Assembly: GCF_029318685.1 (NCBI RefSeq)
Contig: NZ_CP119677.1
Location: forward strand, 3,773,001-3,837,000
Length of the DNA stretch: 64,000 nucleotides
Reading direction: 5' to 3'
Source of the DNA: Ruminiclostridium papyrosolvens DSM 2782
Lineage (GTDB): Bacteria; Bacillota; Clostridia; Acetivibrionales; DSM-1351
Each line of letters opens with the position of its first letter. Position 1 is the stretch's first letter. Made by a program: the position numbers and the translations under genes. Under the pieces are notes generated by a model. The model searched no databases, was not told the DNA's origin, and was given only the letters and a program-made list of their open reading frames with translations. Shown one piece after another: positions 40,450 through 64,000 of the stretch.

Positions 40450-41703
40450 TTATATTAAAGCAACTTTAATTTCTTTACTTTCTTCCCCTCTATCCAGCTT
40501 GAAATTGCCTTTCATTCCGACTGCTATTGCTTCATAGTCTCCAAAGAAGCCTGAAACCGTTACTTCGCCATTTTTATCTGTAACTGCATTAAACGCCCCC
40601 GTCCACCATTGCTTCTTGATAAGTTTATGTAACTCATCATATATGGGTTTCAGCCTATTGTCCTGTGACACAAAACCTGTTGGTGCACCAAGCCATTGTC
40701 CGTCTACAAAGTCCCACCAGGTTATTGATTCTACAAGAGGATGAGAAAACAGTGTCTTATAATGCAAGGCTGCCTCTTTTGCCTGACGTTCTTCTCCTTC
40801 CGGGGTGGAAGGCCATTTATCAATAACATAATCATTAAAATCTTCTATTCCTCGTGGCATGGTATGTCCTGATACCAAGGTGGACTCTGTAAAGTGAATT
40901 GGAAGCATAAAACATGAAAATCTCTCCAGAACCTCACAGGTTCTTTCAACTCCCCAGTACCCCTGATGCATATGTGATTGAATTCCTATGGCATCAATGG
41001 AGACTCCTGCTTCAAGGCAGCCCTCAATTAATATTTCATAAGCATCAATGCCTGTATAAACAAAATCATTAATCATCAGAAAAGCACCCGGGTTCGATTC
41101 CTTTGCGGCAGAAAACATCTCCTGTACGGCACAAATCCGCCCCATGCTTTTGCAAATTCTGGTTATTCCGTTATCGTATTTATTAAATATTGGCATAATA
41201 ACCGCTTCATTAACTACATCCCAAATATCTATTAATCCGGTAAAATTTTTCATTTCACGCCGGATACGTTCAAGCTGCAATTCAAGGATTTTAGCATTTG
41301 TCATGTCAAGGAGCCAAGACGGGGCCAAAGTGTGCCAGCACAAGGGATGTCCCTTTATTGTACAGCCGTTTTCCTTAAACCATTGGGCGGTTTTCTTCAA
41401 TCTTTCGGTATCCGGTTGACCTCTTACATTTTCAAAGTTACTCCAATAGAATGGCAGCGTCACATAATTGAACAGGTCGAAAAATTTTTTAAATATCCAT
41501 TTGGCTCTTTCATTTTCCTCCTGATTAAGCTCATTATTGGCAAAGGGTATGGAGCTGAATTCCGCACATCCAAAAAGAAATTGGTGCTTTGTCTGTCTGA
41601 TTGAAACCACTGTATTTGCAACGGGTTTTCCATTTTGTCCAATCAACTTTAATTTTCTCGTACCCATACGATGTTCGTATTTCTTATAGTATTCAATATC
41701 CAT
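40450..41703 (-). CDS. GH10 family (xylanase-like) enzyme without signal peptide
   Basis: 417 residues. GH10 barrel with KGHPLCWHTLAPSW, acid/base Glu in WDVVNEAV (about 165) and nucleophile Glu in IHFTESTL (about 268), then SITWWDFVDGQW. About 25 N-terminal residues form a beta-strand region and ~60 at the C-terminus a small beta domain (GEVTVSGFFGDYEAI). Unlike cellulosomal xylanases it has no signal peptide and no dockerin, so it is likely cytosolic. It starts 13 bases after the cyclase stop, which makes it a co-transcribed member of the biosynthetic cluster. Substrate unknown. Confidence 0.8.
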   Translation of the reverse strand: MDIEYYKKYEHRMGTRKLKLIGQNGKPVANTVVSIRQTKHQFLFGCAEFSSIPFANNELNQEENERAKWIFKKFFDLFNYVTLPFYWSNFENVRGQPDTERLKKTAQWFKENGCTIKGHPLCWHTLAPSWLLDMTNAKILELQLERIRREMKNFTGLIDIWDVVNEAVIMPIFNKYDNGITRICKSMGRICAVQEMFSAAKESNPGAFLMINDFVYTGIDAYEILIEGCLEAGVSIDAIGIQSHMHQGYWGVERTCEVLERFSCFMLPIHFTESTLVSGHTMPRGIEDFNDYVIDKWPSTPEGEERQAKEAALHYKTLFSHPLVESITWWDFVDGQWLGAPTGFVSQDNRLKPIYDELHKLIKKQWWTGAFNAVTDKNGEVTVSGFFGDYEAIAVGMKGNFKLDRGEESKEIKVALI

Positions 41704-41716
41704 AGTTTCTTCCTTT

Positions 41717-42850
41717 CTATTTCATGTACATCCTGTTTATTGCTTGCATAACCAATTCCATGGGAACAGCCGTAAGTATGCTGTGATTAAAGGTTTTGCC
41801 AACCCTGTCCAAAAGCACCATTTGGACAGTTCCTTCCTCAACGGCGGTATATCCCCTCTTGTTGTCATATTTCAATATGGATAAGATGGTGTCAGCATTT
41901 ATTTTTCCGTCTATGGCTGTGGGGGCTCCTGCCTTTTCCAGTAGTGTTCTGTGTATTTTAATATCTTTGTCCGGCAGATGTCCCAGCATATGGGATATTT
42001 CAGCTGCACACAGCATTCCCAAGCCCACCGCTTCTCCATGAGTTACAATCCCCCCACCTGCCAGCTCTATGGCATGTCCGATTGTATGGCCATATTCCAA
42101 TATCAACGCACCTTTTTTTTCATAGGCATCATTTTTCATAACCTGTGTTTTGGCTTTTACGGACATTTCAATAAAATAACGGTAATTTCCCCCGGTATAG
42201 CTGCAATCCGCATTAAGTATATCTGACAGCCGCTCTATATTTTCAGGTAAAATAGTAAGCACATTCTTAATTGTTTCGCACAAACCGGATATAATCTCTT
42301 TTTTAGGTAATGTTTTCAGAAATTCAGTGCTTGTTATTACCATTTCGGGAGTATGGAATACACCTATTAGATTTTTACCGTAATCTGAATTGATGGCTTG
42401 TTTTAATGACAGCACAGAGTCGGATATTGCCATAAGAGATGTTGGTATATGTATAAACTTTATTCCACGAAACAGTAGTGCAGCAACCATTCCTGCCATA
42501 TTTCCGCATATACCTCCGCCAAGTCCTATAATACATGTACGTCTGGTTGCTTTTAATGAAATAACCTTTTCTATCATTTCTTGCAAAACCGTCAGGTTCT
42601 TGGTCTTTTCTGTACACTCAAATATAATCAATTCACACCTGTAGTTTTTCCTTATACGTTTTACAATATCTTGTCCATATATTCCTCCAATATTTTTATC
42701 ACTTAAAATTACAAAGGAATCAATGTCCTCTAAATCGGACAGTCTTTCCGTAATATTCTCAAAATCGTTATATAAATAGTATTTAAAGGATTTGTCCCCG
42801 AACTGAATATCAAAAGTACTGCATGAATTCTCTGCATAAGCATTCTTCAT
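41717..42850 (-). CDS. 2-deoxy-scyllo-inosose synthase-like sugar-phosphate cyclase (BtrC-like)
   Basis: 377 residues, dehydroquinate-synthase fold: NAD-binding GLGGGICGNMAG (about 107-118), metal ligands Glu in LCETIKNVL, His in EYGHTIGHAIE and His in THGEAVGLGM. AroB proteins carry SSVGGKTGVN; here the matching text is SDSVLSLKQAIN, and AroB's EVIKxG is ETIKNVL. Both substitutions resemble BtrC of butirosin biosynthesis, as does DNKRGY. It would convert glucose-6-phosphate to 2-deoxy-scyllo-inosose, the first step to 2-deoxystreptamine-type cyclitols. It follows a BtrH-like gene by 13 bases. Confidence 0.82.
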   Translation of the reverse strand: MKNAYAENSCSTFDIQFGDKSFKYYLYNDFENITERLSDLEDIDSFVILSDKNIGGIYGQDIVKRIRKNYRCELIIFECTEKTKNLTVLQEMIEKVISLKATRRTCIIGLGGGICGNMAGMVAALLFRGIKFIHIPTSLMAISDSVLSLKQAINSDYGKNLIGVFHTPEMVITSTEFLKTLPKKEIISGLCETIKNVLTILPENIERLSDILNADCSYTGGNYRYFIEMSVKAKTQVMKNDAYEKKGALILEYGHTIGHAIELAGGGIVTHGEAVGLGMLCAAEISHMLGHLPDKDIKIHRTLLEKAGAPTAIDGKINADTILSILKYDNKRGYTAVEEGTVQMVLLDRVGKTFNHSILTAVPMELVMQAINRMYMK

Positions 42851-42863
42851 CCTACCACCACCC

Positions 42864-43856
42864 TTAATTATTTGTAATCATACTGTCCATGGAATCAAAC
42901 AGGCTATTATAAAGCTTGCTTTCCATATCATATATTTGGCACAGCTTATGATAATATTTCTTCTTATCCTGTACTCCGCCTCTTAACTGGTCTCTATATG
43001 CCAAATCCCTCATAACTGCCCACGCCTTATAGATTTCCTCCATCAAGGGTACATATTTACTGTTTTCCCCCAGTATGTTTCTGAACTTAAACAAATTTGA
43101 AGCCGAAGCAACTTTATTATTGAAACAAGCTGTCTCACTCATATCAAATTCATTTATGTTTTCAGCCAGTGTTCGTATGCTTTTCAAACCATTATGAATT
43201 ATTTCACTGTTTGCCATAAGATTATTTATCATTGTATTTTTATATAATTGAGGGTCATCATTTACTTTAATTTGGGGATTTATTTTTGATATCAGCCTTA
43301 TTGTCGGCAAGCCGCCTTGTACGTAATTAACAACTCCTTCATGACATTTTTTCATATCCTGAAAGCTTATTTCATGCTTATAGAAGCATCTTTCCGAATC
43401 TGATTCCATGCCATTGGCTTCTGCAGTCAGAAATACCTTCCTTTCCGAATTAAAACCGTAAATCAATATACTTTGGTAGTGATGGTGCTGCAGATAAAAC
43501 AAGTCATGGTACGGATGCTTGTAATAGAACCCATCAATTGGAATTATGATTAGCTTGTCATGAAGTAATGCTTCTTTTATTATATCTACAATATCATGGC
43601 AGTACTCAAATTTGCTTTCCGTAAGTATTCCGTTATATTTCTCCAAATCTTCTACGGGTCGAATCTGGTAATTTCGGACTACCAGCGACAAACCGGCAGG
43701 TGTTTTCTCCAGATTATATGCAAAATAATCATTGGATATATAGCTGAAAATACTTCCGTTAAAAGCTTTTATTGCTGTAAAAAGAGCTAAGAAAAAACAG
43801 TCAACATAATAGACCGTATTAAAAGGAGAAACATTTTTTATTTCATAATGTTTCAT
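42864..43856 (-). CDS. BtrH-like papain-fold acyltransferase (1)
   Basis: 330 residues. The N-terminal ~200 residues match the butirosin biosynthesis protein H N-terminal family: nucleophile-like Cys in YYVDCFFLALFTAI (about 20), His in HHHYQSILIYGFN (about 127) and an acidic/Asn partner after it, then a helical C-terminal half. BtrH moves an acyl group from carrier protein BtrI to an aminoglycoside amine; papain-like CtaG does transacylation in closthioamide assembly. Strong AAGGAGG site; adjacent to the cyclase, so a likely transfer to the cyclitol (inference). Confidence 0.75.
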   Translation of the reverse strand: MKHYEIKNVSPFNTVYYVDCFFLALFTAIKAFNGSIFSYISNDYFAYNLEKTPAGLSLVVRNYQIRPVEDLEKYNGILTESKFEYCHDIVDIIKEALLHDKLIIIPIDGFYYKHPYHDLFYLQHHHYQSILIYGFNSERKVFLTAEANGMESDSERCFYKHEISFQDMKKCHEGVVNYVQGGLPTIRLISKINPQIKVNDDPQLYKNTMINNLMANSEIIHNGLKSIRTLAENINEFDMSETACFNNKVASASNLFKFRNILGENSKYVPLMEEIYKAWAVMRDLAYRDQLRGGVQDKKKYYHKLCQIYDMESKLYNSLFDSMDSMITNN

Positions 43857-44021
43857 TTGTATCTGACCTCCTTACTTATGGTATCAGGCGGGTTTTCTTA
43901 CATATTTTATAGTAATATAAACCACGAGTCAGTTCCACTATATGTATTTGTAGGAATTATAAGTAAGATAAAAAGAAATGCTATGGCATTATATAGTGCT
44001 AATGTAATAAAAACCCATAAC

Positions 44022-44050
44022 AAAAAAAGCCATGGCACATGTCATGACTT
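44022..44050 (-). terminator. Terminator after the ABC exporter pair
   Basis: On the minus strand AAGTCATG (44050-44043) and CATGGCTT (44034-44027) pair with one weak position and T7 follows. It separates the exporters from the BtrH-like/cyclase/GH10 group, which may therefore be expressed at a lower level or from its own promoter. Confidence 0.6.
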
Positions 44051-44064
44051 TTCTTATATACCGC

Positions 44065-45801
44065 TTACACGGCTACCTTCTGCTCATCAATTAATTGCTT
44101 GTACAGACCATTATTATTTAAAAGTGTATCATGGTCTCCCCTTTCAGCAATATATCCGTCTTTTACGACAATGATTTCATCAGCATCCTTAATAGTTGAT
44201 AATCTGTGTGCTACAACAAACATTATGCCGCCTTTGTCATACACAATATCATTTATATTCTGCTGCAAAATTTCTTCTGTTGAAATATCTATGGCTGAAG
44301 TTGCTTCATCCAGAATATAAATATCAACGTCCTTTGTAAACAGTCTCGCCAATGCAAGTCTTTGTCTTTCTCCACCTGACAGGGTAATACCTCTGTCCCC
44401 GATTTCAGTGGATAAGCCAGCCTCCTGCTTTTTAATAAAATCATAAAAGCAGACTTTTTTGCATACTTCCACGATTTTTTCGTCTGCTGTGTCATATCCA
44501 AACAGAATATTATTTCTAATTGTATCTGCGAACAAAAATGTATCCTGAAAACAAATTGCTGTCTTTTTACCTATCCATTCGTCACTGTCAATTGTACTTA
44601 AATCAATACCGTTGACTTTTATAGTCCCTCCTGTTGGCTTAATGATAGACAGCAATAGCTTGATAATTGTAGATTTACCTCCACCGCTGGGGCCTACTAT
44701 CGCTATTTTCTTCTTACCTTCTATCTTAAAGCTCACATCCCTTAAGACCTCTTCTTTTGAGTTATCGTCGTATTTGAAGCTGACGTTGCAAAACTCTATG
44801 GTTTTTATCTTACCTATATTTGCACATGATTCCGGTTTCTCTGTATCATAAGTAAGTTTTTGAACCCTTGATATTTTTGCAACAATTTTTGATAAATCCG
44901 TTGCTTCATTATACACTACTTCAGCAGAGTTGAGGAAAAGGTCGCAGTATCTGTAAATTGCTACATATACGGCAATGCTCATACTGCTATTTATAACAAG
45001 ATATCCTCCATATAACAGGAAAAACACCATCAAGGTCCATTTAATTATATTTGTAGTCAGGAATTGTAAATTCTCCATGTTTTTTAATTTCTTGGCCTTA
45101 ACATAATACCTGTCGAATACTCTTATTCTTCTGTCCTTTTCCCATTTTGCGCGATTGTACGCCAGCACCTCTCTGGTAGCAGCAACCCCTTCTTCAGTAA
45201 CTTTATGTATTAGCGTCACATCTACAAAGTAGTCATCCATTGCCACTAAGAATTTCTCTGTAAATATTTTACCTATTAACAGATATAGCCCTCCCAGTAC
45301 AACGGTTATCAGCAATATGTATATACTTATTCTTCCGAGTAGGAACATGAGCACCAGCATTTGAACAACAAAACTTATACTCTGGGTTTTTTGCTTTATG
45401 CCTGAACCGATAGCCTGTATGTCTTGTGTAAGCACATCCACATATGTGGCATTTGAGGTCTCTTTTAGTTTACCTAACGGCATAGCATATACAGCTGATA
45501 AAACCATTTTGGTTAAATTGTCTACAAGTGGGATTTGTAACAGTTTGAGTCCGAAATATTCCATAATCGAAGGAAAAATACCTTTTGCAATGAGTATTCC
45601 TGCCAAACTTAAAGCTAATACTACAGTTGTATGCAGCTGATTATCCAGAACGCTGTTAATAATGGATTGCAGTACAAAAACTTCACTTAATGTAATAAAA
45701 GCAAATGCCAAAGACAAAAGAATAATAATTGCTATCTTTATTTTTATTTTTTCTATTTTAGACAGCACCCAGGACAAGTTGGAAAATACTTTATTCATCA
45801 C
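44065..45801 (-). CDS. ABC exporter half-transporter (1)
   Basis: 578 residues: six-TM domain about 1-310, then an ATPase domain with Walker A GPSGGGKST (about 370), Q-loop CFQDTFLF, signature LSGGERQR, Walker B IYILDEATSAID and H-loop VAHRLST. MsbA/LmrA-type fused half. Its start overlaps the stop of the next half-transporter gene by 11 bases, so the pair likely forms a heterodimer that exports the cluster product or a precursor. Confidence 0.88.
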   Translation of the reverse strand: MMNKVFSNLSWVLSKIEKIKIKIAIIILLSLAFAFITLSEVFVLQSIINSVLDNQLHTTVVLALSLAGILIAKGIFPSIMEYFGLKLLQIPLVDNLTKMVLSAVYAMPLGKLKETSNATYVDVLTQDIQAIGSGIKQKTQSISFVVQMLVLMFLLGRISIYILLITVVLGGLYLLIGKIFTEKFLVAMDDYFVDVTLIHKVTEEGVAATREVLAYNRAKWEKDRRIRVFDRYYVKAKKLKNMENLQFLTTNIIKWTLMVFFLLYGGYLVINSSMSIAVYVAIYRYCDLFLNSAEVVYNEATDLSKIVAKISRVQKLTYDTEKPESCANIGKIKTIEFCNVSFKYDDNSKEEVLRDVSFKIEGKKKIAIVGPSGGGKSTIIKLLLSIIKPTGGTIKVNGIDLSTIDSDEWIGKKTAICFQDTFLFADTIRNNILFGYDTADEKIVEVCKKVCFYDFIKKQEAGLSTEIGDRGITLSGGERQRLALARLFTKDVDIYILDEATSAIDISTEEILQQNINDIVYDKGGIMFVVAHRLSTIKDADEIIVVKDGYIAERGDHDTLLNNNGLYKQLIDEQKVAV

Positions 45802-47545
45802 CGCCTATTACCCCTTTTTTCACAAGATTATAAAAGCATGTACCTTCTTTAAATAAGCTGTTGAAATCACCGTCTTCAACAATCCTGCCTTCATTTAGTA
45901 CAAGTATTCTGCTGAATTGTTTTATGACTGAAAGCCTGTGTGAAACCATAAGCATTGTTTTGCCGTCAGATATGTCAAAAAGATTGTTCATAACCTTTGC
46001 TTCCGTAATGGAATCCAAATCAGATGTTATTTCATCCAACAAGTAGATTTGAGGAGCTTTAAGTATAACTCTGGCAATTGATAATCTCTGTCTTTGGCCT
46101 CCCGACAGATTTTCGCCCCTGCTTCCCAGCATAGTATCATAACCGTCTTTCATATTTTCAATAAATTCATGAGCTTCTGCCAATCTAACCGCTTTAGTAA
46201 AATCATCTTCGGCAGCATCCGGCTTTGCAAATTTCAGATTTTCCTTTATGGTTTCAGAAAAAAGAAACATCTCCTGAAATACAATACCAAAAGAATTGCG
46301 AAGGTCATTAAACCTATAGTCTTTTATTGGTACACCGTCTATGAGTATTTCGCCCTCACAGCAGTCATAGCATCTAAGCAGAAGTTTCAGAATTGTTGTT
46401 TTACCGTTGCCGCTTCCACCTACTATTACAACTTTTTCGCCTTCGGCAATATTGGTAGTAAGATTATTTAGAATACCAGCTTGATTTTCATAATTAAAGC
46501 TCACATTGTTAAAGGTAATACTCCCCTTGATTTTGTTATTAGTGGGATTTTCGCTTTCTTTAACAGTAGGCTCAATATGCATAAAGGTATAAGGCTTTTC
46601 AGCATCGGTCAGATTTTTATTCTGGTTAATCAATAAATTAGTCAGTTTGGATAATGCAGTAATCGCCATGGATACATATGCATAATACGCAACTATATTA
46701 CCTACTGAAAAGAAATTTCCGTCTGCATTATTTATTCCTAGAATAAAATATGTTCCGATTGCTACGGCTTGAAAAAAGTTAACGTAGTTCAATATCCTTT
46801 GTTCCAGCCCCAGATTTCTAAGTTTCTTGCTGTTGAGGTTACCCAGCTCAGAAATTACCCCTTTGGAAATCCAGCTGCCTGAGTTGTATCCCCGAACATC
46901 TCTTACAGATTCAATGCAGTCATATACCTTCTTATAATGCAAATTTGTAACATCTCTTATTTCCATATTTCTGGTATATATGCGCCTGCTGGATACTAAC
47001 GTCACAGCCGCTACGCAAAGACAGCAAATTAAAACCGTTGCAATAAAGTAAATATTTTTGCTTAGAATAATCATTATCATAGGAAGTGTGAAGGCACACA
47101 ATAACCGCATTGTATTTGGAATAAAGTCATAGTATAAAAAGTAGACGGACAATACATTCTGATATGTCTTGGCCAAAAAATCTCCTCTTGGCGTTTTTTC
47201 AAAATAGTCATAGCCCAAATCTCTTGCCTTGTCTATAACTGCATATTGTATTACCTTTGTTCCCTTCTCGCAAAAAACCATACCGCATAATCCGTGTAAA
47301 AGACGGACAATAATAATCACAGCCACAATCAAAACAGTGTATGCCACAAGTCTTGTAACAATGGAAAAATCCTTACTTATGGCAACAACGTCAATAAATT
47401 TTTGAATCTGCTTTGGCAACAGTATAAAACAGGTTTCCTGAATTGCTACAAGTACAAAATACGAAATTACATAGAAAGTGTACTTTTTTAAAAACGTAAA
47501 GCACCATAAGTACAACTTAAAATGATTGACCTTTTCTTCTTTCAT
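45791..47545 (-). CDS. ABC exporter half-transporter (2)
   Basis: 584 residues, TM domain then ATPase: Walker A GGSGNGKTT (about 388), Q-loop VFQEMFLFSE, signature LSGGQRQR, Walker B IYLLDEITSDLD and H-loop VSHRLSV. In the Walker B follow-on, Glu after Asp is retained, so both ATP sites of the pair could be active. Downstream of the PP-loop enzyme gene in the cluster and coupled to the other half. A product exporter and probable self-protection factor (inference). Confidence 0.87.
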   Translation of the reverse strand: MKEEKVNHFKLYLWCFTFLKKYTFYVISYFVLVAIQETCFILLPKQIQKFIDVVAISKDFSIVTRLVAYTVLIVAVIIIVRLLHGLCGMVFCEKGTKVIQYAVIDKARDLGYDYFEKTPRGDFLAKTYQNVLSVYFLYYDFIPNTMRLLCAFTLPMIMIILSKNIYFIATVLICCLCVAAVTLVSSRRIYTRNMEIRDVTNLHYKKVYDCIESVRDVRGYNSGSWISKGVISELGNLNSKKLRNLGLEQRILNYVNFFQAVAIGTYFILGINNADGNFFSVGNIVAYYAYVSMAITALSKLTNLLINQNKNLTDAEKPYTFMHIEPTVKESENPTNNKIKGSITFNNVSFNYENQAGILNNLTTNIAEGEKVVIVGGSGNGKTTILKLLLRCYDCCEGEILIDGVPIKDYRFNDLRNSFGIVFQEMFLFSETIKENLKFAKPDAAEDDFTKAVRLAEAHEFIENMKDGYDTMLGSRGENLSGGQRQRLSIARVILKAPQIYLLDEITSDLDSITEAKVMNNLFDISDGKTMLMVSHRLSVIKQFSRILVLNEGRIVEDGDFNSLFKEGTCFYNLVKKGVIGGDE

Positions 47546-47621: not shown

Positions 47622-48542
47622 TTACAGTAATTGCCCATTTAGTCCAAGTTTTTCAACAATACATTTCATTTCACAGTTCAGCTCCTTTGAAATCATATCT
47701 TTAAAATAACTTGTGGCATGTTCAAATTCTTCTTTAGTTAAGCTTCCGTTTTCATAATCCAATTTAAACTCATTTAATTCATGGAACTTAAATCCCAGTT
47801 TTTCTTTAAATATTCCAAAAAGACTTGTCAGTTTGCAGCCTGAAGTGGTATATTCTGCATTTGATACACCGGGTGTGGGGTTTTCCCATTGATACTCTTC
47901 CTGAAGCTCCTTTTTTATTTGAGAAATGTTGTAACCAAAATACAAGAAGGGATGGATTACAGAGACACTTTCGGGGCAAATGAACATCTTGTCAACAATA
48001 TCTTTTACAACACAATCTGTTTTGTACCGTTGTGTGGTTTTTATAGTTTCATAGGCATTGTCAAATCTTGCTTTCAGCATCTCCTCTGCTATATTTATCA
48101 TGCGTTCGGACATTTGTGCCTTTGTACCAAAGATTTGTGCTGCGGTTGTACCGCTTGCCACAAAAGGAATACCCATATTGTCTGCAAAATGCATTCCTAA
48201 CGAGGTAAAATAACGGTTGCATAAATAACACAAAGGATTATCATCTAAATCTATTATAGCGGGATCTATTAACAAAAAATTATAGAATTTTAGTATATCC
48301 CTTACCTTTGGCTTGTAGATAAAAAGGTCAAGATTCAGTTGATCCGCAACTTTTTTTGCCTGAGCATCATCCTCAAAACTGTTATCTACAGTAAACAGAC
48401 AAACTCTTTGACCTTTTACCTGTTTAATGAGATGGGCCAAATATGTACTATCCTTTCCTCCGCTGAACAGTACGAGACAATCATATTTTGATGTCCCGTT
48501 TTTTTCTGATAATTTATTATAAAAAACATTTTCAAGTGACAT
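47622..48542 (-). CDS. PP-loop (alpha-ANH family) ATP-dependent enzyme
   Basis: 306 residues from ATG 48542 (seven bases after AAGGAGG). The PP-loop SGGKDST (about 27) followed by LFTVDNSFEDDAQAKKVADQ and FVASGTTAAQIFG marks the adenine-nucleotide alpha-hydrolase superfamily that adenylates carbonyls for N or S attack (PAPS-reductase-, WbpG-, QueC-like). Cys residues (CYLCNRYF; GCKLTS; CEMKC) could bind zinc or carry sulfur. In the closthioamide pathway an alpha-ANH protein is the thioamide synthetase, so sulfur insertion is one possibility; amidation is another. Confidence 0.7.
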   Translation of the reverse strand: MSLENVFYNKLSEKNGTSKYDCLVLFSGGKDSTYLAHLIKQVKGQRVCLFTVDNSFEDDAQAKKVADQLNLDLFIYKPKVRDILKFYNFLLIDPAIIDLDDNPLCYLCNRYFTSLGMHFADNMGIPFVASGTTAAQIFGTKAQMSERMINIAEEMLKARFDNAYETIKTTQRYKTDCVVKDIVDKMFICPESVSVIHPFLYFGYNISQIKKELQEEYQWENPTPGVSNAEYTTSGCKLTSLFGIFKEKLGFKFHELNEFKLDYENGSLTKEEFEHATSYFKDMISKELNCEMKCIVEKLGLNGQLL

Positions 48543-48562
48543 AGCCACCCCTCCTTATATAA

Positions 48563-50431: not shown

Positions 50432-50456
50432 AATTGGCATACTCCCTTTCAAAGTT

Positions 50457-53320: not shown

Positions 53321-53572
53321 CTATCTGTTTAATAGTTCTTCTATATATGAAATAATAGTTCTAATGCTCTCAAACTTTTTAATATCTAAGTAGCCTGTCT
53401 CAAACTCAATTCCAAACTCAGTCTCTATCTCCACCAAAAGTTTGATAAAAGTCATAGAAGTTATGCCGACATTTGCAAGAAAATCATCAAATTTACTTTC
53501 GTCGTTGATATTTAACTCAAGCCTCTCATTAAGTATTATCATTACCTTGTTTTTTACCTCATTAGAAGTCAT
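53321..53572 (-). CDS. Acyl/peptidyl carrier protein (stand-alone)
   Basis: 83 residues, four-helix carrier protein. The phosphopantetheine Ser lies in VGITSMTFIKLLVEIE (about 37) and matches the GINSITYIK site of A-T 1, so the two carriers are close relatives. Acidic, no other domain. Start ATG 53572 behind GGAGGG. It lies between a BtrH-like gene and the GNAT-like gene, like BtrI in butirosin, and would hold a growing acyl chain. Confidence 0.82.
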   Translation of the reverse strand: MTSNEVKNKVMIILNERLELNINDESKFDDFLANVGITSMTFIKLLVEIETEFGIEFETGYLDIKKFESIRTIISYIEELLNR

Positions 53573-56464: not shown

Positions 56465-56469
56465 AACTG

Positions 56470-57645
56470 TTATGACGCTCCCCCATTAAAAAAATCCACC
56501 AGCAAATCTATTCCTTCCTTGTACCTACTAGTTGAGAATGAGAGCCTTAATGTGGTAGGCAGGCCAAAATCAGAACCCGGTACTGTTGCTACACGTTTGG
56601 TTTCAATGATTCTTTTTGCCAGTTCAAGACTGTCTTTATAGTTATGTTTGTCCATGAAATCCTTACATTCCAGTGTGATGTAAAAGCCACCTTCTGAATT
56701 TATTACTTTTACCAACTGGTTGTTACGGAATTTTTCCACGGTATAATTTCGTCTATCTTTATAAAGCTCCACAAGCTTCTCAACCTCTTCAGGATAATCA
56801 AGGGCTGTCAACGCACCATATTGAACCACCGGATCAACCGTCAGCAATGTATGATGCTGTATAACAGTAAGGGGATCTACCAACTCATCAGGTACGATAC
56901 AGTAGCCTACTCTCTTGCTGTACATACGATACGCTTTTGAGAATGCATTGGTCGTAATGAAAACGGATTTAGTATTTTTCAGTTGCATTACTGATTTATT
57001 TTTTTCGTCAAAATATGTATTGGAATAGATTTCATCGTTGATAATTACTGCTTTGCCGTCAACAATTCTGTCCATCTCGTACAGTTCGTCATCGGTGAGT
57101 ACATTTCCAAGGGGATTACCGGGTGTATTTATAACTACAATTTTGGTCTTCTCTGTAAAATTCTCTCTGAAGGAATCCATGTCCATTCTTCTGGTGCAGG
57201 GATCAATTTTGTAGTACTTTATATCAGCCCCGGAGAGCAGTGCAGAGAATCTGTATAAGGAATAGTACGGGGTAGGAAGTAAAACCTCATCACCCTTTTG
57301 GGATAGTATATAAAACAGATTTCTAAAAATTGCACTTGTACCTGTACTGATAATAAAATTATTTGGGTTTATATCCACATCATACTGCTCTTTATAGTAG
57401 GAAGAGAGCTTTTCCTTGAGCTCCGGCAAGCCTCCTGGGAATACAAGTGAGCTCTTGCTGAAATCTCCTGTTGCGTCCTGCATGCTTTTGATGATATCAG
57501 GATGCAGAGGTAGTTCTGATTTTCCTAAGGTCATTCGGATTACCTTATTATCCGGGTTTTGTTTATCCAGCTCATACGCCATTTGGTCTAAAACAAACAT
57601 CAAAAATTTGTTATCGAAAAAATTCACTTCGGTTCTTAATTCCAC
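56470..57645 (-). CDS. PLP-dependent aminotransferase, class I/II
   Basis: 391 residues, fold type I. SGTxAIF-like ISTGTSAIFRNL, NTPGNPLGNVL, NDEIYSNTYF, the PLP Lys in NAFSKAYRMYSKRVGY (about 236) and substrate-binding Arg in LRLSFSTS. Closest in style to aspartate/aromatic aminotransferases. In the cluster it may build an unusual amino acid or aminate a keto intermediate, including the cyclitol ketone, though known inosose aminotransferases are of the DegT type. GTG start; 5 bases before A-T 2. Confidence 0.88.
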   Translation of the reverse strand: MELRTEVNFFDNKFLMFVLDQMAYELDKQNPDNKVIRMTLGKSELPLHPDIIKSMQDATGDFSKSSLVFPGGLPELKEKLSSYYKEQYDVDINPNNFIISTGTSAIFRNLFYILSQKGDEVLLPTPYYSLYRFSALLSGADIKYYKIDPCTRRMDMDSFRENFTEKTKIVVINTPGNPLGNVLTDDELYEMDRIVDGKAVIINDEIYSNTYFDEKNKSVMQLKNTKSVFITTNAFSKAYRMYSKRVGYCIVPDELVDPLTVIQHHTLLTVDPVVQYGALTALDYPEEVEKLVELYKDRRNYTVEKFRNNQLVKVINSEGGFYITLECKDFMDKHNYKDSLELAKRIIETKRVATVPGSDFGLPTTLRLSFSTSRYKEGIDLLVDFFNGGAS

Positions 57646-57704: not shown

Positions 57705-58145
57705 TTACTGTAAGCAAGGGTCCATTTGTAATAATTCAATAACGTTTTTATCCGGATCCTCATAAAAAACAATTTTTGTTTTCCCAAACTTTGGAGTGTC
57801 AACAGAAAAAACTTTACTTATGGGTTTAATCCCGTAATCCGCCAGCTTTTCCATCTTCCTATCCAAGGAATTGACCAGAATTGTGAAATTTGCCGGAGAT
57901 GGTGCCAACTCCGCAGAAATTCTGCTTCCGTCCTCATTCATGTATTCCATAAGTTCAAGCATGGAACCTGTGTGTGAGACCTTTAGCAGTACCAGTCTGT
58001 AACGGTTATAGGCACCATTCGACACAAAATTTACAAGTTCTCCGTCGATTTGGGTATCGTCTACTATTTCCATTCCTAATTTATTTACATAAAAGTCTAA
58101 TGATTTTTCCATGGAGCGGACGAACAAATCTATATGTAGCAACAT
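57705..58145 (-). CDS. VOC-family (glyoxalase/bleomycin-resistance fold) protein
   Basis: 146 residues: HIDLFVRSMEKSLDFYVNKLGM, LELMEYMN, ANFTILVNSLDRKMEKL and FYEDPDKNVIELLQ, a complete VOC domain pair of beta-alpha-beta-beta-beta units. A metal-ligand set of His (HIDLFV), Glu (LELMEY) and Glu (VIELLQ) is visible. It could be an epimerase/lyase-type enzyme of the pathway or a product-binding resistance protein. Located between the radical SAM and aminotransferase genes. Confidence 0.8.
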   Translation of the reverse strand: MLLHIDLFVRSMEKSLDFYVNKLGMEIVDDTQIDGELVNFVSNGAYNRYRLVLLKVSHTGSMLELMEYMNEDGSRISAELAPSPANFTILVNSLDRKMEKLADYGIKPISKVFSVDTPKFGKTKIVFYEDPDKNVIELLQMDPCLQ

Positions 58146-58163
58146 AACTTTGTTACTTCTCCC

Positions 58164-59795
58164 TTAAATATTAAAGTATTGTTTAGGTTCAATCCCTGCT
58201 TTATTCAGCTTCAGGTAAAGTGACAAGCGATTTCTTTCAAGGTCATCACTGGTACTCTTGAAATACTTGAGGTTCCAGTATTCCTCTGTTATCTTATCAG
58301 CCTTGTCCTTATTCCATCCGCCTTCAGTCATTGAAAGAAGTTCTCTGAAGCACTTTGCATTGTTCTTATTAACCTTGTGCAAAACTTCCCATGCATAATC
58401 TTCATGTGCTTTTATTGTGCTAAGGAATTCAGGAAATTGGCGTTTTATATGATTTAAAAGCTTAAATTCCTCACGGATGTAGCTTCCTATTTTTTTAGAA
58501 TAAAAGTACTCTTTTGAATTTTCATTTTCGTGATACTTGAAATATAAATAAACCGATAGTTTTCCTACATCTTCATCCACATATCTATATGAATGGCAGC
58601 TGTCAATATCATCATTAATGATAAGTCCGTCTCCTTTTACCTTGTAATAAATATTAGAGAATTTGGTTATTCCGCATCTTTCCACAAGGTAGTAGAGTAC
58701 TGAAGCAAAACAGGTCTTTTCAAGATAATCTACGTTTTCACTAAGTCTTTTTATAGTCGAATAAGGATTAAAGTTTATGAAGCCTATATCAATTGCTATA
58801 TCATTATCTCTGAAATATTTGATAGTATTATAGTTGTCTTCAGCAGTCGCAGGTTTGTTATAAAGCTTCAAATCTTCCGCATTTCCCGACTCTATTCCAA
58901 AAATAGTACCTACAAAACCGGAATCCTTTAAAAGCTTTATTTTCTTTTCGTCAAACTGCTTGTAAACCTCTGCTCTGAAATATGTTTCATAGGATATATG
59001 CAAATTATTTTCAATTATTTTTTCGGCTATTTCCCACATTCTGTTGGGACATGACTTATTGCAATCCTCAAAGCTGTCATCAATGAACCAGAACCTGTTT
59101 ACATTATATTCGTCAACAATTTGCTTGACTTCTCTTACTACGTTTTCCGGGCTTCTTCCTCTCCACTGGTTTTTGCCATTGGTTCCCCAGAAATCGTTAT
59201 GCCAGCAAAAGCTGCAATTTGCCTTACATCCACGGCTGGTTGAAATGTACGCATACTTTAACATGTTGTTCCTGAGGAGATCTCTTTCAGGGAATGGCAG
59301 TGAGTCCAAATCCTCAATAAGTGCTTCCCTCTCATTTTCAATAATCTTATCGCCATCTCTGTATAACAAGCCCTTCACATTACTATATCCACTGTCATTT
59401 TCCATTGCTGTTACCAGATTCTTGAAAACTATTTCTCCTTCTCCCTTTATGATGAAATCCACCATAGGGTATTTCTCCATAAGGATATCTCCGCACAGGG
59501 TAGGCCAATATGCTCCAAAGCATATCTTTGCATTTGGTACTTTTTCCTTAATTTTTTTGCATACCTCATAAACAACCTTTTCTGTTGTAGAATACACCGG
59601 AAGACCTATTAAGTCCGGCTTCATTTCATAGATACGTTCAAGATCAAGATATTTTCTGCTGGAATTAATAAGCTCAACATCAAAATTTTCTTTCCTCAGG
59701 TATGCTGCAATAGAACATATGCCTATTTCCTCAGTAATTATTGCATTTTTTTCAGTCAATACACTCAGGAGCAAGGTCTTTATACGTTTTTTCAT
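58164..59795 (-). CDS. B12-binding-domain radical SAM enzyme (1)
   Basis: 543 residues from ATG 59795 (after AAGGGTG). N-terminal Rossmann-like cobalamin-binding region (about 1-150: GICSIAAYLRKENFDVELIN, DLIGLPVYSTT, ICFGAYWPT), radical SAM motif CKANCSFC (about 190) preceded by STSRG, FIDDSFED, and a long C-terminal region. The layout fits class B radical SAM methyltransferases and related enzymes. The usual DxHxxG cobalamin motif is not evident, so cobalamin may be base-off or absent. Likely C-methylation or rearrangement of a carrier- or cyclitol-bound intermediate. Confidence 0.8.
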   Translation of the reverse strand: MKKRIKTLLLSVLTEKNAIITEEIGICSIAAYLRKENFDVELINSSRKYLDLERIYEMKPDLIGLPVYSTTEKVVYEVCKKIKEKVPNAKICFGAYWPTLCGDILMEKYPMVDFIIKGEGEIVFKNLVTAMENDSGYSNVKGLLYRDGDKIIENEREALIEDLDSLPFPERDLLRNNMLKYAYISTSRGCKANCSFCWHNDFWGTNGKNQWRGRSPENVVREVKQIVDEYNVNRFWFIDDSFEDCNKSCPNRMWEIAEKIIENNLHISYETYFRAEVYKQFDEKKIKLLKDSGFVGTIFGIESGNAEDLKLYNKPATAEDNYNTIKYFRDNDIAIDIGFINFNPYSTIKRLSENVDYLEKTCFASVLYYLVERCGITKFSNIYYKVKGDGLIINDDIDSCHSYRYVDEDVGKLSVYLYFKYHENENSKEYFYSKKIGSYIREEFKLLNHIKRQFPEFLSTIKAHEDYAWEVLHKVNKNNAKCFRELLSMTEGGWNKDKADKITEEYWNLKYFKSTSDDLERNRLSLYLKLNKAGIEPKQYFNI

Positions 59796-59826
59796 ACTTA
59801 TCACCCTTCTCTTTACTAGATTTGAA

Positions 59827-60069
59827 CTAAGACTTACTTTTCTTTTCGACTGTATCAACCATTGCATTCAGCGTTTCGAAATTTTCAGGCAGCATATCTT
59901 CTTCACTGAATGAAATTTTGAATTGCTTTTCCAAAAACAGAATAACATTAACGATACTGATAGAATCGATTAACCCGCTATCTATCAATTGCTGCTCATC
60001 AGATATCGTATCCACTTCCTTAATCACAGTATCCAGTAGGAAATCCTTTATGATTTTCTTTTTGTCCAT
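59827..60069 (-). CDS. Acyl carrier protein (stand-alone, second)
   Basis: 80 residues, carrier fold with phosphopantetheine Ser in GLIDSISIVNVILFLE (about 37). The GLIDS site is of the ACP type and unlike the GINS/GITS carriers of the cluster, so it may serve another loading enzyme. Between the hydrolase fusion (22-base gap) and the radical SAM gene. Confidence 0.82.
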   Translation of the reverse strand: MDKKKIIKDFLLDTVIKEVDTISDEQQLIDSGLIDSISIVNVILFLEKQFKISFSEEDMLPENFETLNAMVDTVEKKSKS

Positions 60070-60091
60070 ACTCTCCCCTCACTTTCTATTT

Positions 60092-62065
60092 TTACTTTTT
60101 TGAGATAATATTTTTAGAATAGTACTTCATATGCTGCTCAATTCTTTCCATTACGTCCTCCGGCCTTTCCAGAATCATCAGATGCGTAGCACCGGGCAAA
60201 CGGGAATAGTTTGAATTTTTAACCCGATTGTGGGCCCATTCGGACTGTTTATACGGTGCTATTTGATCACACTCCGCAGAAATGAATAAAACAGGCTTAT
60301 CAACTTCAGTCAGAAGGTCTGTTATATCGTGCAGATAATACTCCATACACATATTCAGAAAATTCACCATCTTTTCCTTGGAGGTAAACGGCTCGAGAAG
60401 AATATCCCTGTGCCTTTCGGGCATAACTTCATATATATATTTATCATTCTCGCCGGAGTATTGCTTAATAGGTTTATTGAACATGCCGTTATGGATAATG
60501 CGCATGTAGAAATCCAGCATCTTTTCATTATCACTTACGAGTTTTGCAATCAGCTGTATGTTCTCTCTGAATTTAGAGTGATGTGCTTTACTTCCCTCGT
60601 AAGGTGCATATTCACCTGCCAGCAAGATATGGGATTTTATCATTTCCTTATGCTTTTGGTAATACATCATTGCAGATTTTATACCGGAGCACCAGGATAT
60701 TATATGAAAGCTTTTTAAGCCTTCGTTATTAACAATTTCTTCTATATCTTCAACCTGATGTTCAACGCCAAAGATAAAGGACGGATCTTCATTGGGTTTA
60801 TCCTTATGATAAATGCCTCGTGTCTGCCATACTATGACATAGAAATTCTTTGACAATTTTTCTATAACCAGATCCCATGCATCGGGACTGACTCCATAAG
60901 CATTTACGATTATTATGGCTTCTCCCTTACCCGCAGTATAATATGTAAATTCACGTCCGTTTTGGGATATAATCGTTTTCTGGTTTTTGTTTACGGCAGG
61001 AGGAGGCAGCAAGTTTCTATTCCGGCTCATTTTCAAGGTATCTGCAATATAATCATATATATACATATAACTTTGCTTAACAGCTTCCGGGGATTGTTCT
61101 ATGACTTTTTCAGAGTCTGTTGTAAGTCTTAGGTACGGGAGATGATATGACAGGATATGCTCGAATATAAGATCAATTTCATTCAATGTCTCTTTATTAT
61201 GAGTAATTTCTATGCGGATATCACTCATATTTCTGCTGATTTCCTTTATCAGCTTATCAAACTGAAAACTACAGGAACATGTGGCAGGAAGAATTTCAAT
61301 GTTATTTACACTCTCTTCCCTGTATTGCTCTACTATCCTGTCTATGATGCTCTGGGTGCCTGAAATATCAATTGTAAATTCATCTTCTGAAAATATAGTC
61401 AGGGCATTATCATCAAAATAACTGGGAATTCTTGAATTTACCCATTGTTTAAATTCCAGCAATCTGTATATAAAACGGTCTATTGCTTCAATCCAGTCAC
61501 TTTCCTTCAACTGCCTGAAAGCTAGGGGTGTCTGATACACTTTTATTCTGATGTTTGTACCCTTAAATTTTTCTGTCAGGAATCTCTTATTTTCCGTCTG
61601 TAATTTTCCAAGCAAAGTGCAGTTATCATCACCTTTAGCCTCCACCGCCGAATACATGGAAGTTATATAATTCACCTCGGATACATAGCACTTTTCACAG
61701 AGTTCCTGAATATTGTCCATGATTTTTTTGTTGCTGCTTAATATCTGGGACTCATAAATTGATACAATACACACCTCTTTATCCAGATGCCAAAGGCTTA
61801 TTTCCTTGTCTGCGAACAGTTCCTTGCAATTAAATACCTTTAATTCTTCAATATCCTCAAAAATAACCTGTATACTGTTCATTGTATGGAATAAATCTTC
61901 TCTTTCGTGGATACATGAAATACTGTCTACTATTTCCAGCAACGTATTCCATTCCTTCTTCCCGGAAAAGCAATAAACGGGGCCCAGACTTTTTTCCATA
62001 AGGGTATTGATGAATCTCAATCCAAAAAGGTCGTATATTCCTGTAAATAAGATAATCTTATCCAT
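60092..62065 (-). CDS. Alpha/beta hydrolase with Cys nucleophile fused to an unknown N-terminal region
   Basis: 657 residues. About 1-350 is unrecognised; its opening KIILFTGIYDLFGLRFI hints at a degenerate extended-SDR (thioester-reductase-like) Rossmann start without the GxxGxxG motif. About 365-657 is an alpha/beta hydrolase: oxyanion region IIVNAYGVSPDAW, nucleophile elbow SWCSG (Cys in place of Ser, about 448), Asp in ISAECDQIAP and His in GATHLMIL. Cys nucleophiles occur in PHA synthases and some acyltransferases. It may release or transfer a thioester-bound product. Confidence 0.75.
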   Translation of the reverse strand: MDKIILFTGIYDLFGLRFINTLMEKSLGPVYCFSGKKEWNTLLEIVDSISCIHEREDLFHTMNSIQVIFEDIEELKVFNCKELFADKEISLWHLDKEVCIVSIYESQILSSNKKIMDNIQELCEKCYVSEVNYITSMYSAVEAKGDDNCTLLGKLQTENKRFLTEKFKGTNIRIKVYQTPLAFRQLKESDWIEAIDRFIYRLLEFKQWVNSRIPSYFDDNALTIFSEDEFTIDISGTQSIIDRIVEQYREESVNNIEILPATCSCSFQFDKLIKEISRNMSDIRIEITHNKETLNEIDLIFEHILSYHLPYLRLTTDSEKVIEQSPEAVKQSYMYIYDYIADTLKMSRNRNLLPPPAVNKNQKTIISQNGREFTYYTAGKGEAIIIVNAYGVSPDAWDLVIEKLSKNFYVIVWQTRGIYHKDKPNEDPSFIFGVEHQVEDIEEIVNNEGLKSFHIISWCSGIKSAMMYYQKHKEMIKSHILLAGEYAPYEGSKAHHSKFRENIQLIAKLVSDNEKMLDFYMRIIHNGMFNKPIKQYSGENDKYIYEVMPERHRDILLEPFTSKEKMVNFLNMCMEYYLHDITDLLTEVDKPVLFISAECDQIAPYKQSEWAHNRVKNSNYSRLPGATHLMILERPEDVMERIEQHMKYYSKNIISKK

Positions 62066-62073
62066 ATTTCCCC

Positions 62074-63702
62074 CTACTTATTTCTCATTTTCAAGTTGTT
62101 AACCAACTCGGTATTTCCTCTGAATACATTAAGCATTTTGTTGACGTTTTCCCTATACCTGTCATCAATTTCCTCGTCCTTGTATCCTACTACATCCTTA
62201 AATATTTTTGAAAGCTCCATAAATTCACTTATTTGTGTTCCCTGAGTCAGGAAATAGGCCAAAGACCACAGATTAAAAGAAAGAGAAGGCATAAAGTAGG
62301 AATTTTTTATGTTTCTGATTCCATCCAGAACTATTTTACCGGCTGACTCATAATCCATGTCCTTATGGGACCAACTGTACCCGTACCCTTCAAGATTGTA
62401 ATAATCTCTTTCCTTAGATATAGGTACGGCATTTTCAAAGAACCATACCTGAAGGTCATAAAATGTAGGTTTGGCTTCCTCAATAAATTTAATGGTATCC
62501 CTTGCTGTTTTTTCCGTTTCCCCTGGGAATCCCACCATACAGGATGCATGGCTGACAATACCGTATTTATTTAGCTGTCCGATACCCCATACCAGCTGTT
62601 CGGTAGAAACTCTTTTGTCCATATTTTTTCGTATGGTATCATTGCCGGACTCTACGCCCAAAATAACACCACCGCAGCCGGATTTAGCCATTAATTCATA
62701 GGTTTCTTCATCTGAATGGGATATTCTAAAAAAGGAGTACCACTTGAAATTATATTTATTTCTTATCATCATCCTTAACATGTCTTTAAACCTATCCAGA
62801 GGTACATTGAGGGAATCATCAACAAAAACTATGGATTTTACTCCTAGAGAGTGAATATAGTTCATGTTTTTTTCAATACTCTCTACTTTCATGAACATTG
62901 GCTCCCCGCCAAGTATAGGGTATCGGCAGAAAGAGCAGCACAAACTGCAGCTGATGGAGCAGCGCATATAAACCGGCGGTTTAGGATGATTTTCATAAAA
63001 TGTAAATTCTTTTATAGGATCATCATCCAGACATATGTTTTCAGGTACTTTTACCGTTCTTTTGTAATGTCCGTCCTTGTATATGATATTTGGGATTTTG
63101 GTTAAGTCGGGCTTGTCCTTTCTTAATTCGGTACATATCTGAAATAATGTATCCTCCCCCTGACGCTCATGAATGAAAATATCTGCCCCTATACTCTGAA
63201 GCAAATAATTTTGCTGGGGAGTTGAATATTCAAAATTTATACTGTTAATAAAGGGACCGCCTACCACAATTACAATAGATGGGTCGATTGAGCGGATATA
63301 GTCCACAATTTCCCTGATTGGTGCAGGTTCAACATGGCATGTTGAGGATACGCCTATGCAATTTGGTGAATAGTTTTCAATCAGATACTTCAATTTTTCT
63401 CTGCCATCATTAAAGTAGTTTACATATCCTACTGACATTCCGTGCTTTTTAAGGTAATTCATACAGTAGTGTACTGCCATGTTGGGCATTCTGTATATTG
63501 TAAGGTCGCTATGCATTCCTGTTGAATTTGTAATACTTTCTCTTACAATTTCAGAATACTTCAACCGTTGTCCGTTAACTACAGCAGACCTTGCAAGCAT
63601 ATGTTCATAAGCTGCACTTTTATCCTTGTATGGCTCTATACGTTTGATAATGGTACTCATTTTTTCATCATTAAAGCCAATCATTACGCAATCATGTTTC
63701 AT
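62074..63702 (-). CDS. PhpK-like B12-binding radical SAM enzyme (2)
   Basis: 542 residues. It opens MKHDCVMIGFNDEKMSTIIK, as in the PhpK (radical SAM P-methyltransferase) family, followed by a cobalamin-type Rossmann region (IGVSSTCHVEPAP, VVGGPFIN), the cluster motif CSLCCSFC (CxxxCxxC, about 257) and GVILGVESGNDTI. PhpK methylates phosphorus in phosalacine-type compounds, but relatives occur in clusters with no phosphorus chemistry. No phosphonate gene is seen here, so C-methylation or another radical step is more likely. Confidence 0.78.
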   Translation of the reverse strand: MKHDCVMIGFNDEKMSTIIKRIEPYKDKSAAYEHMLARSAVVNGQRLKYSEIVRESITNSTGMHSDLTIYRMPNMAVHYCMNYLKKHGMSVGYVNYFNDGREKLKYLIENYSPNCIGVSSTCHVEPAPIREIVDYIRSIDPSIVIVVGGPFINSINFEYSTPQQNYLLQSIGADIFIHERQGEDTLFQICTELRKDKPDLTKIPNIIYKDGHYKRTVKVPENICLDDDPIKEFTFYENHPKPPVYMRCSISCSLCCSFCRYPILGGEPMFMKVESIEKNMNYIHSLGVKSIVFVDDSLNVPLDRFKDMLRMMIRNKYNFKWYSFFRISHSDEETYELMAKSGCGGVILGVESGNDTIRKNMDKRVSTEQLVWGIGQLNKYGIVSHASCMVGFPGETEKTARDTIKFIEEAKPTFYDLQVWFFENAVPISKERDYYNLEGYGYSWSHKDMDYESAGKIVLDGIRNIKNSYFMPSLSFNLWSLAYFLTQGTQISEFMELSKIFKDVVGYKDEEIDDRYRENVNKMLNVFRGNTELVNNLKMRNK

Positions 63703-63709
63703 ATGTATT

Positions 63710-64000
63710 TTATCTCCCCTCTCTACTAATAAGACTTACCAGATTAGCTATATTCGGCTTATTGAAGAATTCGCTGTAATCAACTTCCACATTAAATTTA
63801 TTGTAGATTTCGGCTAGGAGTGTCATAACCCGCAAGCTGTCCCCTCCAAGGCTCATAAAGTTTTCATTTACGCCTATTCTATTTATTTTGAGTATTCTTT
63901 TCATAACTTCAGCCACAGACACTTCAAGCTCTGTACTTGGAGAATCCTGAATTTCCTTTGATTCTAAACGGTCTTCTAAAGGAACAGGCAGTCTCTTTCT
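63710..64000 (-). CDS. C-terminal end of a third adenylation-carrier protein (cut by window edge)
   Basis: The frame is open from the stop at 63710 to base 64000. The last visible 96 residues begin KRLPVPLEDRLESKEIQD, the linker that follows the A10 motif of an adenylation domain, then a carrier domain with Ser in SLGGDSLRVMTLLAEIYNKF. A GTG at 63922 could be misread as a start, but the frame continues upstream. It lies 7 bases from the PhpK-like gene and shows that the cluster extends past the window. Confidence 0.82.
   Translation of the reverse strand, partial: RKRLPVPLEDRLESKEIQDSPSTELEVSVAEVMKRILKINRIGVNENFMSLGGDSLRVMTLLAEIYNKFNVEVDYSEFFNKPNIANLVSLISREGR

Follow-up and report, generated by a model that had tools for sequence, protein, structure and literature searches.

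A 64,000-base window of the Ruminiclostridium papyrosolvens DSM 2782 genome (the whole stretch analysed, positions 3773001-3837000 of a single contig of 5,027,861 bases) carries in its right-hand part a gene array that an earlier note, made from the sequence alone, had read as a hybrid cluster in which an inosose-synthase-like cyclase is joined to peptide assembly lacking condensation (C) domains. The locus occupies 40450-68320 in window numbering continued past 64000 (genomic coordinates 3,813,450-3,841,320) and comprises 22 genes, all on the minus strand. Families were assigned by Pfam and NCBIfam profile searches of the locus proteins, and the features are listed below, where A-carrier denotes an adenylation domain fused to a carrier domain, ABC ATP-binding cassette, SAM S-adenosylmethionine and PLP pyridoxal phosphate.

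40450-41703, minus strand: GH10-like protein, no signal peptide apparent (by reading); PF00331, 105 bits; last gene, membership uncertain
41717-42850, minus strand: 2-deoxy-scyllo-inosose-synthase-type sugar phosphate cyclase; DHQ_synthase and DHQS_C
42864-43856, minus strand: BtrH-like protein 1 (BtrH1), Cys kept, catalytic His replaced by Gln; alignment
44065-45801, minus strand: ABC exporter half; Pfam
45791-47545, minus strand: ABC exporter half; Pfam
47622-48548, minus strand: PP-loop (AANH) enzyme, SGGKDS plus C107/C110/C238; alignment and tree
48563-50452, minus strand: A-carrier protein, code DILQMGMVWK; Pfam and core-motif reading
50457-51476, minus strand: BtrH-like protein 2 (BtrH2), Cys/His/Asp complete; PF14399, 41.6 bits
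51488-52549, minus strand: DUF362 plus ferredoxin, two [4Fe-4S] motifs; Pfam
52552-53310, minus strand: GNAT-like acyltransferase, weak match; PF00583, E 0.011, below the cut-off
53321-53572, minus strand: free carrier protein, GITS serine; Pfam
53590-54609, minus strand: BtrH-like protein 3 (BtrH3), Cys/His/Glu; PF14399, 36.4 bits
54575-56464, minus strand: A-carrier protein, code TDWQFGIIYK with Thr in place of the usual Asp235; Pfam and core-motif reading
56470-57645, minus strand: class I/II PLP enzyme; top scores with the archaeal aspartate aminotransferase and GntC models, both below cut-off
57705-58145, minus strand: VOC (glyoxalase-like) protein; Pfam
58164-59867, minus strand: B12-binding radical SAM protein; top score BchE, below cut-off
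59827-60069, minus strand: free carrier protein, LIDS serine; Pfam
60092-62065, minus strand: alpha/beta hydrolase, 657 aa, Cys in the nucleophile elbow (S-W-C-S-G); Pfam and codon comparison
62074-63702, minus strand: B12-binding radical SAM protein, PhpK model; TIGR04479, 744 bits
63710-66082, minus strand: 790-aa A-carrier protein, code DAQDLGVVDK, start outside the window; Pfam and core-motif reading
66141-67409, minus strand: Na+/H+-exchanger-type antiporter; PF00999, 166 bits
67550-68320, minus strand: regulator, LuxR-type helix-turn-helix plus a weak GAF match; Pfam

Every gene named in the earlier note was found in its place on the minus strand. The three A-carrier proteins, the two free carriers, the PP-loop enzyme and the two B12-type radical SAM proteins were confirmed by Pfam and NCBIfam, and the DUF362-ferredoxin, the aminotransferase-type PLP enzyme, the VOC protein, the Cys-hydrolase and the exporters were likewise present. 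On the left, the GH10-like gene at 40450 closes the array and metG comes next; to the right of 68320, genes lie on both strands and are apparently unrelated (by reading). Membership of the cluster is less certain for the GH10-like gene and the antiporter. The former lies 13 bp from the cyclase gene and is 87.5% identical in R. papyrosolvens strain C7; its product scored 616 bits against the solved beta-xylanase 8b73, the next structure reaching merely 82 bits. A defence-system reading of three proteins was dropped after PADLOC gave no match. A description of the locus was absent from the literature listings and abstracts searched, earlier notice in subscription papers being possible.

The same genes were found in the same order in strain C7, on two contigs whose break falls within one of the ABC genes; metG flanks the array at one end, and the neighbours at the other end are shared as well. 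Full-length comparison was possible for 21 genes, in which protein identity was 82.4-97.5% with no internal stops, and the ratio of nonsynonymous to synonymous substitution rates (dN/dS) between DSM 2782 and C7 ranged from 0.037 to 0.234; the remaining gene (ABC half 44065-45801) is cut by a C7 contig end, its larger piece being 93% identical over 431 residues. BtrH1, with its missing catalytic His, had a dN/dS of 0.224, and none of the 21 genes compared looks free of constraint. The array is thus conserved and not a product of chance, and open frames together with purifying selection in 21 of 22 genes rule out a decayed remnant of a non-ribosomal peptide synthetase (NRPS). The C7 comparison also indicated that the true start of the radical SAM gene at 58164-59867 is probably nearer 59800. 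The next cluster to the right (~72994-101611) is missing in C7, where the flanks of the locus are otherwise conserved; it was therefore regarded as separate and rejected as part of a larger locus. That neighbouring cluster encodes several radical SAM proteins, three free carriers, a weakly matched KAS III-like protein, HAD-type proteins, a BtrH protein (87268-88374; PF14399, 42.6 bits), a DegT aminotransferase (84849-86087), an AMP ligase and nucleotide-sugar genes (by reading), with an S-adenosylmethionine decarboxylase at its edge.

As the earlier note had maintained, the assembly genes are not accompanied by a C domain. None was found when the contig was extended rightward to 117000 (window numbering), and the 28 PF00668 matches in the genome are all distant, the nearest on either side, one ending at 3,525,994 and one beginning at 4,005,701, lying 287 and 164 kb away. 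Extension and genome-wide search together refute an ordinary C-domain-containing NRPS just beyond 64000. The motif HHxxxD[GAS] was absent from all six frames of 40450-68320 and occurred 2, 3, 2 and 5 times in four control NRPS loci. Traces of C domains were nevertheless seen in two A proteins. At a sister locus (L093, genome G003), residues 6-229 of the A-carrier protein match positions 192-445 of the PF00668 profile with 26 bits (cut-off 30.6), and the 790-aa protein shows, directly before its A domain, a very faint 9-bit match to profile positions 408-452 of 457, a score obtained against four proteins where Pfam gives none even at E 5. These partial matches suggest, weakly, that the A proteins descend from ordinary NRPS modules in which the catalytic half was lost.

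Candidates for the missing bond-forming activity are the BtrH-like proteins, two of which (50457-51476 and 53590-54609) matched BtrH_N (PF14399) above the cut-off. BtrH1 (42864-43856) had no Pfam match even at E 5; it could be aligned with the other two, and its ortholog in C7 scores no better than E 0.12. In a selection of 24 family members, drawn from the present genome and others, 23 have the Cys and 23 have the more C-terminal His. The catalytic residues read Cys/His/Asp in BtrH2 (50457), Cys/His/Glu in BtrH3 (53590) and Cys/Gln/Glu in BtrH1 (42864). Three proteins of this type are thus present, as had been claimed, but BtrH1, being without the catalytic His, may not be an enzyme. A search of solved structures with BtrH2 returned nothing relevant.

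According to PMC10318531, BtrH_N is close to the papain-like families C39 and C70. By Pfam alone, CtaG yields a weak Peptidase_C39 match of 20.7 bits (cut-off 22). The CtaG sequence was identified by gene order (B to K in series) beside a PP-loop gene whose D77, S78, C154, C157 and C284 coincide with those given for CtaC in PMC6772006; genome G002, in which both lie, is on this basis probably R. cellulolyticum H10. When a profile of 15 BtrH proteins was aligned with CtaG by hhalign, the two matched end to end over 290 columns with 97.2% probability (E 4.5e-11) and 14% identity, the controls CtaJ and the PP-loop protein giving 0.4% and 0.2%, all of these being profile-versus-single-sequence scores that carry no database calibration. 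Judged by this alignment, BtrH and CtaG belong together in one family, the most secure new point of the analysis. Because the likeness runs end to end, the precedents of butirosin and closthioamide become precedents of a single enzyme family; the parallels that the earlier note drew to both hold at that level, CtaG being a BtrH relative. A 2020 PNAS paper is said to have provided in vitro proof of CtaG function and may have noted the link to BtrH already.

The genomic surroundings of the family were examined for all 17 BtrH_N places in the genome, among which BtrH1 is not counted. A carrier domain lay within 5 kb of eight places, within 10 kb of 16 and within 12 kb of all 17; in a circular-shift test preserving the clustering of the places (nine groups), the corresponding means were 1.8, 2.4 and 2.6, and the observed numbers were reached in 47, 1 and 1 of 5000 shifts. 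C domains lay within 20 kb of four places, all in one of the nine groups, and of none of the other 13, a fifth place having one at 23.7 kb. In the class, BtrH_N matches were found in 28 of 391 sampled genomes, eight of them in the genus, where every sampled member had one; per-genome counts are lower bounds, the best 10 candidates per genome having been scored. Further BtrH, carrier and AMP-ligase genes were seen at 0.80, 0.90 and 1.22 Mb of the same genome (loci L041, L042 and L043), and no C domain was found within 75 kb of the BtrH genes at 0.90 and 1.23 Mb.

Some members of the family are probably not acyltransferases, since BtrH1 lacks the His and one BtrH-like protein of a paralogous locus lacks the Cys. 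This, the 28 C-domain matches elsewhere in the genome and the faint trace of a C-domain C-terminal end before the A domain of the 790-aa protein could be accommodated if BtrH proteins served only to load, proof-read or release chains while C domains acting in trans from another locus made the amide bonds. The nearest C domain is 164 kb distant, however, the same gene set is kept as one block in C7, and amide formation in closthioamide is assigned to CtaG as a proposed peptidyl transferase (PMC6772006). We thus consider action in trans decidedly improbable and favor amide formation by the BtrH proteins themselves.

With respect to what would be assembled, all five carriers possess the serine of the attachment motif, read directly from their sequences. 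The ten-residue codes of the three A domains (DILQMGMVWK, TDWQFGIIYK and DAQDLGVVDK), whose residues were picked by core-motif position with the positions taken from GrsA, are identical in C7. DILQMGMVWK is close to the Gly code and DAQDLGVVDK is presumably the Gln code. The second A domain, TDWQFGIIYK, is without the Asp that holds the alpha-amino group. The codes together suggest Gln, Gly and a non-alpha-amino acid as substrates.

The earlier note had called the cyclase BtrC-like, and an AroB grouping can now be excluded. In a phmmer search of solved structures the protein scored 270.5 bits with BtrC and 160.7 with the best dehydroquinate synthase, and its NCBIfam aroB score of 256 lies below the cut-off of 305. 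In a 17-row tree that included plasmid-borne rows, nine rows resembling 2-deoxy-scyllo-inosose synthase (DOIS), the locus cyclase among them, were set apart from the rest by a branch with 100/100 support. Flags were raised for two long branches and for uneven composition in five rows, none of which is the locus cyclase. The motifs GN, KQA, EYGHT and DNKRGY were present in nine of nine DOIS-like rows and in none of the eight others, the Glu in this residue set having a catalytic meaning. By tree and residues, which contradict an AroB copy, the cyclase is to be classed as of the DOIS type; BtrC is, to our knowledge, the sole experimentally tested member of the nine. The genome holds five DHQ_synthase matches, namely two ordinary ones, a distant one, the locus cyclase and a paralog at 1.658 Mb that is 63-64% identical to it. 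Relatives at E 1e-60 were found in two of 11 genomes of the family and, among the best five candidates per genome, in three of 391 sampled genomes of the class, DSM 2782 and C7 included. In the third (G120, from another family of the same order) the cyclase gene (contig 78, 15912-17045) immediately precedes genes for large modular synthetases that contain C-domain motifs, and no BtrH_N match was found among the best 10 candidates scored; one NRPS gene behind it is also polyketide-synthase-like (by reading). A contig scan with three cyclases and narrow peptide patterns returned only the C7 locus, a negative that means little. Outside the class, Sodalis praecaptivus plasmid pHS1 carries at ~384-399 kb what looks like an aminoglycoside-like cluster, a DOIS-annotated gene being grouped there with genes for a DegT aminotransferase, a deacetylase, a glycosyltransferase, radical SAM/SPASM and ABC proteins.

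The partners expected of a cyclitol in the product are missing from the locus: the 22 genes gave no Pfam match to a DegT aminotransferase (PF01041) or a glycosyltransferase, both of which mark 2-deoxystreptamine aminoglycoside clusters, nor to a BtrG-type protein or an ATP-grasp enzyme, the one DegT gene nearby lying in the separate rightward cluster. The cyclitol part could, for this reason, serve another end, the inosose being opened, oxidised or aromatised into the acid of the second A protein or feeding another pathway, while condensation-free assembly holds and the product contains no cyclitol. An unusual acid is indeed needed, given that the second A domain is without the Asp that binds the alpha-amino group, and the peptide part can stand alone, since locus L093 of G003 has a related radical SAM pair, BtrH, carrier and A-carrier with no cyclase match at the locus and none genome-wide at E 1e-60. 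On the other side, transfer by BtrH to an amine derived from 2-deoxy-scyllo-inosose has a direct precedent in butirosin, where BtrH and BtrG together introduce the side chain (PMC8430323); the class I/II PLP enzyme of the locus could transaminate the inosose; and the paralogous cyclase again adjoins a BtrH/A-carrier locus. A cyclitol-free product is accordingly unlikely, though to be kept in mind, and a cyclitol in the product is plausible by analogy.

The PP-loop enzyme resembles the thioamide synthetase CtaC. Its residues D33/S34, C107, C110 and C238 align, at nearly the same spacing, with D77/S78, C154, C157 and C284 of CtaC, which were tested in PMC6772006, and the N-terminal CxxC pairs of CtaC are lacking. 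A 10-row tree placed the protein on the CtaC side with a branch support of 85/88, and its closest relative in G002 adjoins an NRPS gene. The top NCBIfam score was with WbuX, an N-acetyl sugar amidotransferase (63.9 bits, cut-off 203), and two WbuX-like relatives share the three cysteines. These shared cysteines, the WbuX score and the modest branch support leave thioamide formation unsecured, and the protein might be a WbuX-like amidine- or amide-forming amidotransferase, the product then bearing an amidine or amide instead of sulphur. Given the CtaC-side position, the NRPS gene beside the G002 relative and the lack of a glutaminase partner among the Pfam matches in the locus, we view this alternative as possible but rather less probable than not, and retain the thioamide as the working assignment. 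In another genome (G010 contig 37, L084), a PP-loop (AANH) domain with CxxC motifs is seemingly inserted in the C-terminal part of an NRPS adenylation domain.

The radical SAM protein at 62074-63702 scored 744 bits with the PhpK model TIGR04479 (cut-off 600), so methylation of phosphorus and a phosphinate product had to be considered. A search for phosphoenolpyruvate (PEP) mutase (TIGR02320) gave no match in the genome at E 0.001, matches under the cut-off being obtained in six of 14 control genomes. Five further PhpK-type matches were found in the family at E 1e-60, and the three whose surroundings were inspected (G001, G003 and G004) adjoin NRPS, BtrH or carrier genes; two of these three lie above the TIGR04479 cut-off, beside NRPS genes in other Ruminiclostridium genomes, where PEP mutase was not sought. 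The phosphinate was therefore rejected as highly improbable, and the missing PEP mutase together with the company of the PhpK-type relatives led us to read the protein as a putative carbon methylase of peptide precursors. In PMC7277169, a B12-radical SAM methylase and a PLP enzyme are paired to make 2-methyl-1-aminocyclopropane-1-carboxylic acid (2-methyl-ACC), a possible model for the unusual building block here. The Cys-containing hydrolase at 60092-62065 has ~370 N-terminal residues without a convincing family match.

Gene content, boundaries, the lack of C domains, the clade of the cyclase, the full-length likeness of BtrH and CtaG, the catalytic residues and purifying selection are the observations on which we base our interpretation of the locus as a complete and functional set of genes for a small secreted compound, assembled on thiotemplates without condensation domains and with a cyclitol as a likely acceptor, a reading that we hold to be probable by a narrow measure. 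We infer its substrates, the order of its steps, the thioamide and the attachment to the cyclitol as follows. The three A-carrier proteins would load Gln, Gly and a third, probably non-alpha-amino, acid on their own carriers, the two free carriers serving as way-stations. The BtrH/CtaG-type papain-fold proteins, two of three with the needed Cys and His, would accept the acyl chain on their Cys, as a thioester, and transfer it to an amine, either that of the next carrier-bound residue or that of a free acceptor. The cyclase would convert glucose-6-phosphate to 2-deoxy-scyllo-inosose or a close inosose, whose transaminated form is the likely acceptor. On a carrier-bound intermediate, the PP-loop enzyme may swap oxygen for sulphur to form a thioamide. 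The two B12-radical SAM proteins may alter carbon, by methylation or in other ways. Release of the product would fall to the Cys alpha/beta hydrolase, and its export to the ABC exporter and antiporter.

Several points weigh against this reading. Most cluster genes are less constrained than the flanking control genes (dN/dS 0.048 and 0.083), and the Gln that replaces the catalytic His of BtrH1 is found in C7 as well. AlphaFold models of BtrH1 (4-row alignment; mean predicted local distance difference test score, pLDDT, 45.5) and of the hydrolase (single sequence; mean pLDDT 35.0) were too poor for use. The A-code substrates come from a comparison with code tables and are tentative. To these come the uncalibrated BtrH-CtaG scores, the WbuX-like features and tree support of the PP-loop protein and the missing aminoglycoside-type partners, all described above.

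In its broadest form, our proposal is that BtrH/CtaG proteins are a general replacement for C domains in anaerobic clostridia and that here they act in two roles, assembling a short (thio)peptide on carriers out of Gln, Gly and an unusual acid and attaching it to the amine of an inosose derivative, with a thioamidated peptidyl-cyclitol as the result; taken as a whole, this remains speculative and unlikely to hold in every part. We know of no described member of such a compound class. The family adjoins carriers at nearly every detected site in the genome, mostly without nearby C domains, which allows a direct test of whether papain-fold transferases form a second general route to non-ribosomal amide bonds. 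The locus joins butirosin side-chain transfer to closthioamide assembly via one family; it is clearly bounded and intact in both strains, which belong to a cellulolytic genus that can be cultivated, so that it can be deleted or moved whole.

The earlier note knew of no precedent for the combination of the two logics in an anaerobe. Genes of both kinds lie together here, but parts of the combination occur elsewhere, in the cyclase beside modular NRPS genes in G120 and in a paralogous locus of the same genome (~1.637-1.659 Mb). The latter resembles the present locus in its cyclase (63-64% identical), a Gly-type A-carrier protein (50.5% identical), a pair of BtrH-like proteins, of which one is without the Cys, and ABC exporter halves, and differs in that the cyclase lies on the opposite strand at the edge. 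The B12-radical SAM pair is replaced there by a pyruvate-formate-lyase-like (glycyl radical) enzyme with a likely activase and by proteins that, by reading, resemble the radical SAM/SPASM type, four of them in the region L020/L021 (1.630-1.670 Mb). That region also holds an M16 peptidase-like protein, with site-specific recombinases on its far side (by reading).

With 2-methyl-ACC clusters, the locus shares the grouping of peptide synthetase genes with those for a PLP enzyme and a B12-radical SAM methyltransferase; in contrast, Orf29 of those clusters falls in its own clade apart from PhpK (PMC7277169), and the highest scores of the DSM 2782 PLP enzyme are with the aspartate-aminotransferase and GntC models. 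The butirosin cluster (btr, Bacillus circulans) likewise combines a DOIS-type cyclase with BtrH and a carrier. Relative to its gene set, the DSM 2782 locus is without matches for the DegT aminotransferase, glycosyltransferase, BtrG-type and ATP-grasp proteins, and has three BtrH copies and A domains. Closthioamide (cta, R. cellulolyticum) is assembled on carriers without NRPS modules, with a papain-fold CtaG that aligns with BtrH over its whole length and a PP-loop thioamide synthetase with matching residues. The cta pathway uses an ATP-grasp enzyme, an acetyl-CoA-synthetase-like loader and the transglutaminase CtaJ (PMC6772006). None of the 22 genes gave a Pfam match to ATP-grasp (CtaD itself scores 36 bits with PF02222) or transglutaminase, whereas the DSM 2782 locus loads its carriers through A-carrier proteins and adds a cyclase and B12-radical SAM proteins to the condensation-free scheme.

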